From: a cyanobacterium endosymbiont of Rhopalodia gibberula
GTDB lineage: Bacteria; Cyanobacteriota; Cyanobacteriia; Cyanobacteriales; Microcystaceae
Length of the DNA stretch: 64,000 bases
Direction: 5' to 3'
NCBI RefSeq assembly: GCF_003574135.1
Contig: NZ_AP018341.1
Location: forward strand, 1,178,001 to 1,242,000
Made by a program: the position numbers and the translations under genes. The notes below the pieces were generated by a model. That model was not told the origin of the DNA and did not search any database. It saw nothing but the letters and a program-made list of their open reading frames with translations. Numbering within the stretch: position 1 is the first letter of the stretch; the number at the start of each line of letters is the position of its first letter. Below, in pieces: positions 16,011 to 16,880 of the stretch.

Positions 16011-16219
16011 TGAGGTTTAAAAGTGAAGTTAGCCTTGCCCCTTGGTATATTTGAACGAAAATTGTAGTCTTAACTATTGGCGGTTACCATTTCGGAGTTG
16101 GATAATCGTCAGCCTTGTTGTGTTTTGACTTAGATATTGAGAATAACAAAAGTGTTTTTAAATCTCGCCTAACTTATGTACTCAATCAAATGATATGATT
16201 CAAAAAGGGTTTATCCCGT

Positions 16220-16554
16220 GGGGCTGTGGCTCAGTAGGATAGAGCAAGCGCCTCCTGAAGTATCGGGCATCATGGACGGAAACGCCATAGATGGATGTGG
16301 TCAAATTCAAGGAAGCCTAAGTCTTCTTAAGGATAAGGTAATCTTGAGCCAAGCTCTACGTCCCTGGTAGAGAAGGTGCAGAGACTGGTTGTAGCTCGCC
16401 AAAGGGAAACAAAGGCAGTAGGGCTAATAATGTCTACAACATAACGGCCACCACCTAAGGACATCAGGTCTAGGGTGAAGGAATAGTCCAGAGAGTGGGG
16501 AAACTCACACCAATCTGAAGCGCTAGGTCGCCGGTTCAAATCCGGCCAGTCCCG
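16220..16554 (+). tRNA. tRNA-Arg(CCU) interrupted by a group I intron
   Basis: Exons 16220-16256 and 16518-16554 join into a complete cloverleaf: 7-bp acceptor stem (GGGGCUG with CAGUCCC, one G-U pair), D stem GCUC/GAGC, anticodon stem AGCGC/GCGCU with loop CUCCUAA (anticodon CCU, reading AGG), T stem GCCGG/CCGGC with loop UUCAAAU, and discriminator G. CCA is not encoded. The intron lies directly after anticodon base U36. Without splicing the loop would not close, so splicing is required for a working tRNA. It is the only tRNA I find in the window. Confidence 0.92.
16257..16517 (+). other. Group I intron (261 nt) in tRNA-Arg(CCU)
   Basis: The insert begins after U36 and ends in G, as group I introns do. 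The conserved core elements are present: GTGCAGAGACT at 16376-16386 (R element, 5' side of P7) and AAGGAATAGTCC at 16478-16489 (S element), with GACU able to pair with AGUC. It carries no reading frame of its own; the 70-codon frame on the other strand is fortuitous. Size and core resemble the IC3-type introns of cyanobacterial tRNA genes. I did not fold the whole molecule. Confidence 0.85.
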
Positions 16555-16880
16555 TTAATCTGTCAGCAAGTCTCTATGAAACGGTAACTAGAGAAAGCAT
16601 AATATAATGTTAGCTTTGAGCCTCATCCATAACTGAGTACTTAAATCTATAAACTTCTTGGTTTAAGTCAGATAGAGGTCACAAACATCGATGGTTTATG
16701 GCTTATGATTGACTTTGCTGTGAGTTGTTGTGAAAGTCTAATGACTTTAAATAGCGTTTCTCACGAAGGAAAAGATTGAAGTAGACCCTAATTTATTTTC
16801 TGTTGTATAAAATTAAAAAAACTTTGTATTTCATTAGAATGCTTTACGACTATCCCAATTAGTTCGATAGTTCCATTATT
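16555..16880. other. Spacer between tRNA and YdcF-like gene
   Basis: No frame or RNA recognised. Confidence 0.5.

Follow-up and report, generated by a model that had tools for sequence, protein, structure and literature searches.

What is the insert that splits the anticodon loop of the tRNA-Arg(CCU) gene in the spheroid body of Rhopalodia gibberula (RgSB), can it still be removed from the transcript, and why is it kept? The question arises in a genome for which the parts of PMC5638926 available to us report 286 pseudogenes and 22 IS elements, none of them likely transposable. We analysed the locus within a window of 64,000 nucleotides (the whole stretch of DNA under study, to which all positions refer) from a host genome that consists of a single 3,020,309-bp contig. 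Open reading frames (ORFs) of 150 aa or more cover only ~48% of this window (1-64000), consistent with a decaying genome. The reading that we favour, with a probability of about 0.9, is that the insert is an inherited group I ribozyme, predicted from comparative sequence data to be splicing-competent, in the genome's sole tRNA-Arg(CCU) gene. It is a known kind of element, belonging to a cyanobacterial family that looks under-described.

The gene and its intron

A covariance search with cmscan returned a match to RF00028 at 16244-16510 (+) that covers the complete model (1-253 of 253) with 72.1 bits (gathering 50) and an E of 2.4e-16, the sole Rfam match above threshold in the 64-kb window. ARAGORN found zero tRNAs in the window when introns were disallowed, and a tRNA-Arg(cct) with a 261-base intron at 16220-16554 when they were allowed; the joined exons (16220-16256 and 16518-16554) were recognised as a tRNA-Arg(CCU) of 74 nt. 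The gene, on the + strand, is 335 nt long when unspliced, and a group I intron of 261 nt divides it after U36 (Table 1). Several adjacent exon splits also pass ARAGORN as CCU, and the 37/37 split is alone among the accepted ones in combining a U.G at the 5' site with a G as the final intron base. The CCA end of the tRNA is absent from the encoded 3' exon.

These results bear out the initial annotation, which had proposed a group I intron in tRNA-Arg(CCU) and had recommended the covariance search that now exceeds the RF00028 cut-off; the insertion after U36, the terminal G and the R and S motifs that it described were all found in place. Its further statement, that the spliced exons give a cloverleaf while the unspliced gene does not, holds in its first half only: the minimum free energy (MFE) fold of the unspliced RNA preserves the acceptor, D, anticodon-stem and T arms, which enclose the intron; the interruption is in the anticodon loop. 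The same fold also displays the intron helices P1 to P6, P8 and P9, and P7 is absent from it because P7 forms a pseudoknot with P3.

Table 1. Parts of the interrupted tRNA-Arg(CCU) gene, in window positions.
Feature	Position	Strand	Evidence
5' exon: acceptor 5' strand, D arm, anticodon stem 5' strand, C32-U36	16220..16256	+	ARAGORN, joined exons, 28-row alignment
Group I intron, 261 nt; begins GAA, final G = omega G	16257..16517	+	RF00028 72.1 bits, covariation
P1: exon CCU pairs with intron GGG; splice-site U.G in 28/28 rows	16254..16267	+	alignment helix 4
P2, GAAA loop; 6/10 pairs with double-sided change	16268..16293	+	alignment helix 5
P3 5' strand, pairs with 16446-16451	16297..16302	+	alignment helix 6
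P4-P5-P6 domain	16307..16377	+	alignment helices 7-9
P7 5' strand (R motif), pairs with 16485-16489; invariant in 28 rows	16381..16386	+	alignment helix 10, RF00028
Extra P7.1-like hairpin between P7 and P3; stem 16388-16394/16434-16440	16387..16442	+	alignment helix 11
P3 3' strand	16446..16451	+	alignment helix 6
P8	16452..16477	+	alignment helix 12
P7 3' strand (S motif)	16485..16489	+	alignment helix 10
P9, GAAA loop	16495..16508	+	alignment helix 13
3' exon: A37, A38, anticodon stem 3' strand, variable loop, T arm, acceptor 3' strand	16518..16554	+	ARAGORN, 28-row alignment

Splicing would follow the order established for group I introns (guanosine attack, then exon attack after the terminal G). 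The anticodon CCU would pair with the internal guide GGG to form P1, so that U36.G marks the splice site; a guanosine bound in P7, where by analogy the guanosine site would lie, would attack the bond after U36; and the freed U36 would then attack after the terminal G, ligating U36 to A37 and releasing the 261 nt. The intron is no longer mobile by itself in this genome, since the endonuclease gene of some relatives is absent. It probably persists because precise excision seldom happens and a deletion with inexact ends would destroy the tRNA.

A sole tRNA-Arg(CCU) gene

A tRNA family search of the whole genome returned 39 uninterrupted tRNAs, and ARAGORN assigned an anticodon to every one of them (39/39). 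Their arginine anticodons are UCU, ACG and CCG only, CCU being confined to the interrupted gene. Rescue by a second intact tRNA-Arg(CCU), which would have made the present copy a relic in the terms of the initial annotation, was rejected: the complete genome holds 0 CCU among its 39 uninterrupted tRNAs. The DNA of the gene matches one other place in the genome, the intron of tRNA-Leu(UAA), which is the other group I intron above threshold and whose host gene likewise stands outside the 39.

The published tRNA count for RgSB is also 39 (PMC5638926, PMC11131595, both seen in part) and, judged from these totals, the interrupted tRNA-Arg(CCU) and tRNA-Leu(UAA) appear to be missing from it. The omission probably stems from the use of tRNAscan-SE, which stands in the reference list of PMC5638926 and which, in its version 2.0, is not designed for the detection of group I introns, as stated in the portion of PMC8450103 available to us. 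The same annotation gap may affect many Cyanobacteriales.

Covariation and constraint

We aligned the intron-bearing tRNA-Arg(CCU) genes of 28 genomes, the window gene included, and scored the alignment against a hand-drawn structure of 92 pairs, 71 of them in the intron, that takes in the tRNA arms, helices P1-P9 (P3 and P7 forming a pseudoknot) and the extra hairpin. Standard pairs fill 96.7% of the cells, and double-sided changes occur at 32 of the 92 pairs of gene and intron (24 of them in the intron, out of 71). Covariation scored 0.181, against a shuffled mean of 0.100; none of 500 shuffles reached four of the five covariation measures, and one of 500 reached the fifth (the number of pair types). 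Such shuffles ignore the relatedness among the 28 rows, whereas slid-partner controls preserve it, and with the latter pairing fell to 31-40%. P1 with its U.G, P7 and the anticodon stem are invariant in the alignment, so that P7 itself provides no covariation evidence; within the P3/P7 pseudoknot core, 2 of the 6 pairs of P3 show a double-sided change.

All 71 intron pairs are formed in the window sequence. The figure is 68 to 70 of 71 in the three other spheroid bodies compared with RgSB (G000), namely EcSB (G001), EtSB (G003) and uoEpiScrs1 (G004), and in two further genomes of the same family (G013, 1,443,806 bp; G021, 1,491,611 bp) that we take to be probably UCYN-A; the lowest rows of the alignment form 62 of 71. 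The hairpin of three rows (G009, G019 and G036) looks misaligned, which lowers the hairpin's pairing score. Compensatory changes occurred within reduced genomes as well: a C-G pair of P2 is U-A in uoEpiScrs1, and a P3 pair is G-C in one of the probable UCYN-A genomes and A-U in the other.

The intron changes more slowly than its surroundings. Relative to the window copy, the intron differs at 8/261 positions in EcSB (3.1%), 12/261 in EtSB (4.6%) and 18/260 in uoEpiScrs1 (6.9%), whereas three adjoining intergenic stretches differ by 12.5-17.2%, 15.8-20.0% and 28.0-31.2%, respectively. Similarly, the introns of G013 and G021 are 8.3% different from each other, compared with 22.2% for the 300 bases before the gene and 15.6% for those after it. 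Among the spheroid bodies, the hairpin insert diverges by 5-14% and the intron core by 2-5%. Taken as a whole, the conservation data fit an intron RNA that selection would be keeping functional.

Could the intron nevertheless be a decaying relic that no longer splices, with tRNA-Arg(UCU) reading AGG? A tRNA-Arg(UCU) does exist, AGG is a rare codon, with 38 occurrences among the 10,340 codons of the window's 33 ORFs that reach 150 aa, and the genome is decaying, as its pseudogenes testify (PMC5638926, in the part seen), but a relic would hardly evolve, intron and exons alike, several times more slowly than the flanking intergenic DNA, nor retain nearly all helix pairs in the four spheroid bodies compared, and we consider this reading very unlikely. 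The slow divergence and the kept pairing also speak for the initial annotation's assertion that the intron must stay functional. The assertion goes too far in one respect: the cell's need for tRNA-Arg(CCU) is no more than likely, because the tRNA-Arg(UCU) of the genome might in principle decode AGG through wobble pairing. A bolder proposal is that guanosine-dependent splicing ties the supply of tRNA-Arg(CCU), and hence the decoding of AGG, to the nucleotide state of the symbiont, and that intron and hairpin would for this reason have been kept in spheroid bodies and probably in UCYN-A, like the plastid tRNA-Leu intron; we hold it to be improbable.

Counting against the favoured reading, 16050-16700 contains two promoter-like sites against a shuffle mean of 1.1, i.e. 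no excess, the upstream one lying >100 bases ahead of the gene, and no terminator-like site.

Distribution and descent

Matches to the gene were found in 47 of 59 genomes (its own genome counted), as contiguous copies in 28, in two parts in 7 and through the exons or the tRNA-Leu intron only in 12; among the two-part matches, three have an endonuclease gene between the parts and four are without the hairpin. Of 291 genomes drawn evenly from the order, 222 had a match, about 152 of them within the intron itself (a repeated hand count of genomes with a best E of 1e-15 or lower), and at least 30 of 388 genomes of the class gave strong matches (>90 bits) to a model of the intron 3' part plus exon under strict filters. 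Fifty of the 56 named GTDB-species stretches that fit a narrow pattern could be bracketed as tRNA-Arg(CCU) introns, in genera that include Microcoleus, Trichodesmium, Okeania, Planktothrix, Arthrospira and Prochloron. Altogether, 115 of the 121 loci examined for introns were bracketed. The remainder, looser patterns included, are L101, L103, L105, L134, L138 and L144, five of which have the pattern no more than ~250 bases from an end of the fetched stretch; L138, from a 'Spartobacteria' bin, yielded no tRNA by ARAGORN. Other relatives have an uninterrupted tRNA-Arg(CCU), as ARAGORN reported for 12 of 13 loci fetched for that purpose (L080 gave no tRNA).

Phage and plasmid collections gave no match. 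Seventeen IMG/VR stretches fit a short exon-intron pattern; none has an Rfam group I match above threshold or an ARAGORN-interrupted tRNA-Arg, so that we took these fits as chance and rejected them as a sign of spread by phages or plasmids.

The comparison with free-living relatives that the initial annotation had called for shows the intron to be present there, e.g. in SU2 (G002) and in Rippkaea orientalis PCC 8801 (G006; 4,679,413 bp), a member of the same genus as the window genome. No LAGLIDADG match was found in these two genomes, in RgSB or in the three other spheroid bodies, and the gene-free form is thus also that of free-living relatives. The initial annotation had regarded the retention of the intron in a reduced genome as notable. 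This view does not survive the finding that PCC 8801 and SU2 carry the same endonuclease-free form; retention is best seen as inheritance and not as a peculiarity of reduction. The plastid tRNA-Leu intron is a precedent. Another is the tRNA-Arg(CCU) intron of the intracellular bacterium Bartonella (PMC7717549, seen in part). The annotation's remark that the surrounding mobile elements are all dead agrees, at the level of the whole genome, with the IS elements described in PMC5638926.

In sequence identity, the window intron is closest to its counterparts in the other spheroid bodies (97, 96 and 94%), followed by SU2 (93%) and PCC 8801 (88%), and the published species tree gives the same closest relatives (PMC11131595, in the part available). 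We also built a tree of 131 intron rows, in which L191 and L200 were split by hand, L193 was excluded for a misplaced 5' splice site, and only one copy was kept of each of the duplicated L031, L032 and L072 (the others being L163, L170 and L171); as named and unnamed loci overlap, these rows do not stand for 131 species. The rows of the window genus lie close together with a support of 82-91, yet Crocosphaera-like, Spirulina-like and other rows are intermixed with them at weak support, and the probable UCYN-A rows stand beside the tRNA-Leu outgroup and not near Crocosphaera, perhaps through long-branch attraction. With no clean clade for the genus and the probable UCYN-A rows placed by the outgroup, the tree alone cannot prove descent free of transfer; vertical descent within the genus is likely, chiefly on the strength of the identities. 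Introns whose J7/3 (the segment between P7 and P3) is bare form nearly a single clade (22 of 23 rows, 100/100), with L073 outside it. Within Microcoleus, some species carry a bare intron (L125) and others one with the hairpin (L093), in distant parts of the tree, possibly by horizontal replacement at the same site.

A recent horizontal acquisition by the endosymbiont would be in keeping with the homing endonucleases that occur in the intron family, with the two separate lineages at one site within Microcoleus and with the weakly supported mixing of other genera into the rows of the window genus. The order of identities agrees, however, with the species tree (PMC11131595, as far as seen), no LAGLIDADG match was found in the window genome, and the phage and plasmid collections gave none either; we hold such an acquisition to be extremely unlikely.

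Relation to known introns

The tRNA-Leu intron of the same genome is a ribozyme of the same type, 76% identical to the window intron over query bases 82-167 (P3 to P7); unlike the latter it interrupts another tRNA, at a different position of the anticodon loop, and has no J7/3 hairpin. The tRNA-Leu intron is also the one that plastids kept through endosymbiosis. With this identity and with a GAAA loop on each of P2 and P9, the window intron may belong to the IC3 subgroup of tRNA introns, which is marked by relatedness to the tRNA-Leu introns, by such loops and by a short P5. The tRNA-fMet intron of Synechocystis, another group I intron of the anticodon loop, is sometimes accompanied by an endonuclease (I-Ssp6803I) that belongs to a different family from the LAGLIDADG proteins of tRNA-Arg(CCU) introns; it differs from the window intron in sitting in another tRNA. 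Part of PMC8450103 mentions the cyanobacterial tRNA-fMet group I intron.

The alphaproteobacterial introns of Agrobacterium and Bartonella (BbgpI) are found in the same tRNA, beside CCT, and BbgpI, the nearest case with a splicing test, splices both in vitro and in vivo, according to the sections of PMC7717549 available to us. Akin to the present case, the BbgpI host tRNA went unannotated until the intron was taken out; as opposed to the window intron, no J7/3 hairpin or endonuclease is mentioned for BbgpI in those sections, the likeness being one of published description rather than of compared sequences. A survey of cyanobacterial tRNA 'group I introns' (PMC5733544) lists, in the part seen, introns of 22-49 nt in tRNA-Arg(ACG) (22-nt), -Gly and -Lys, a size far too short for group I introns, and that part does not mention tRNA-Arg(CCU) introns. 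Among the matches listed by full-text literature searches, we recognised no true group I intron in a cyanobacterial tRNA-Arg(CCU), and we claim no first description.

The J7/3 hairpin and the homing endonuclease of relatives

The more interesting part of the story is the cyanobacterial family as a whole, some members of which house an endonuclease in the J7/3 hairpin; in the literature searched it seems under-described. Across the 131 intron rows, J7/3 is bare (two bases) in 23, forms a hairpin of 34-82 nt in 67 and holds, in the other 41, 622-662 nt that include an endonuclease gene. The window intron, whose insert measures 57 nt, is of the hairpin-only form and lacks the intact intron-encoded endonuclease by which a mobile intron is recognised. 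The single extra hairpin occupies the place at which introns of the IA subgroup carry the extra helices P7.1/P7.2, between P7 and P3; since it is missing from the 23 bare rows, it fits an addition onto another core, and it is outside the canonical group I core.

In the relatives, the endonucleases of tRNA-Arg(CCU) introns are proteins of at least roughly 200 aa, and the one that was scanned (G042) matches LAGLIDADG_2 (PF03161, E 5.5e-33) and, weakly, I-SceI (E 0.002). A protein search of 388 genomes of the order gave 74 with a match, 41 of them strong (42% identity or more); all 36 strong matches examined sit in tRNA-Arg(CCU) introns, inside the J7/3 hairpin. Some of the weaker matches (33% identity or less) come from genomes that match the tRNA gene via exons only (G066, G106 and G138), so that the endonuclease family is wider than the tRNA-Arg(CCU) intron. 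The 23S rRNA introns of cyanobacteria likewise combine a group I intron with a LAGLIDADG gene; unlike here, the host gene is that of an rRNA, and the proteins are single-motif ones of 143-181 aa among the rows listed in the part of PMC1995217 that we saw.

Is the hairpin, then, what an endonuclease gene left behind when it was lost? Inserts that carry the gene form a similar hairpin from their ends (7 or more pairs in 33 of 41, against 10 of 820 shuffled ends), and in G070, G080 and G092 the gene is split into two pieces in place. A first intron tree required 9 changes of endonuclease label, and a tree of 114 non-redundant rows required 4 changes between the endonuclease and hairpin-only forms. 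With duplicates and the long rows L199, L211 and L212 removed, AU tests rejected neither a single endonuclease clade (p 0.42) nor a single hairpin-only clade (p 0.56), and the hairpin as a proven scar is not upheld. These tests leave room for the converse, that the hairpin is an older structural element which an endonuclease gene entered later, and two further observations point the same way: the stem is kept with double changes in endonuclease-free rows (helix 11), and it has 7 or more pairs in 55 of the 67 hairpin-only inserts. The genes broken in place argue against such an order of events, as they indicate that loss is ongoing, and so does the resemblance between the ends of endonuclease-bearing and hairpin-only inserts; we would give the older hairpin slightly less than even odds.

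Whichever came earlier, one site presents a graded series of intact endonuclease, broken endonuclease, hairpin only, no hairpin and no intron. As this series reaches obligate symbionts, it allows tests of how a mobile intron passes through its life cycle and becomes fixed while a genome undergoes organelle-like reduction.

A second kind of gene was encountered in two bare introns, L201 (G565) and L207 (G693), whose P5 region harbours a different endonuclease gene, HNH_2 (PF13391; E 8.5e-11 and 2.8e-6), encoded on the opposite strand; relatives of this gene occur at L213 (G258) and L214 (G180), both also with long tRNA-Arg(CCU) introns. By these matches, homing genes of two kinds seem to have entered the intron family. 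The intron of L193 (G145:C11), from a 2.2-Mb genome of the order that is 99% complete, contains a LAGLIDADG frame that is open over 262 aa, unlike the introns of the reduced symbionts, which lack it. Finally, the endonuclease frame of L031, L032 and L072 crosses the 3' strand of the hairpin and P3 and stops at a TAA that starts in P8, so that gene and ribozyme overlap.
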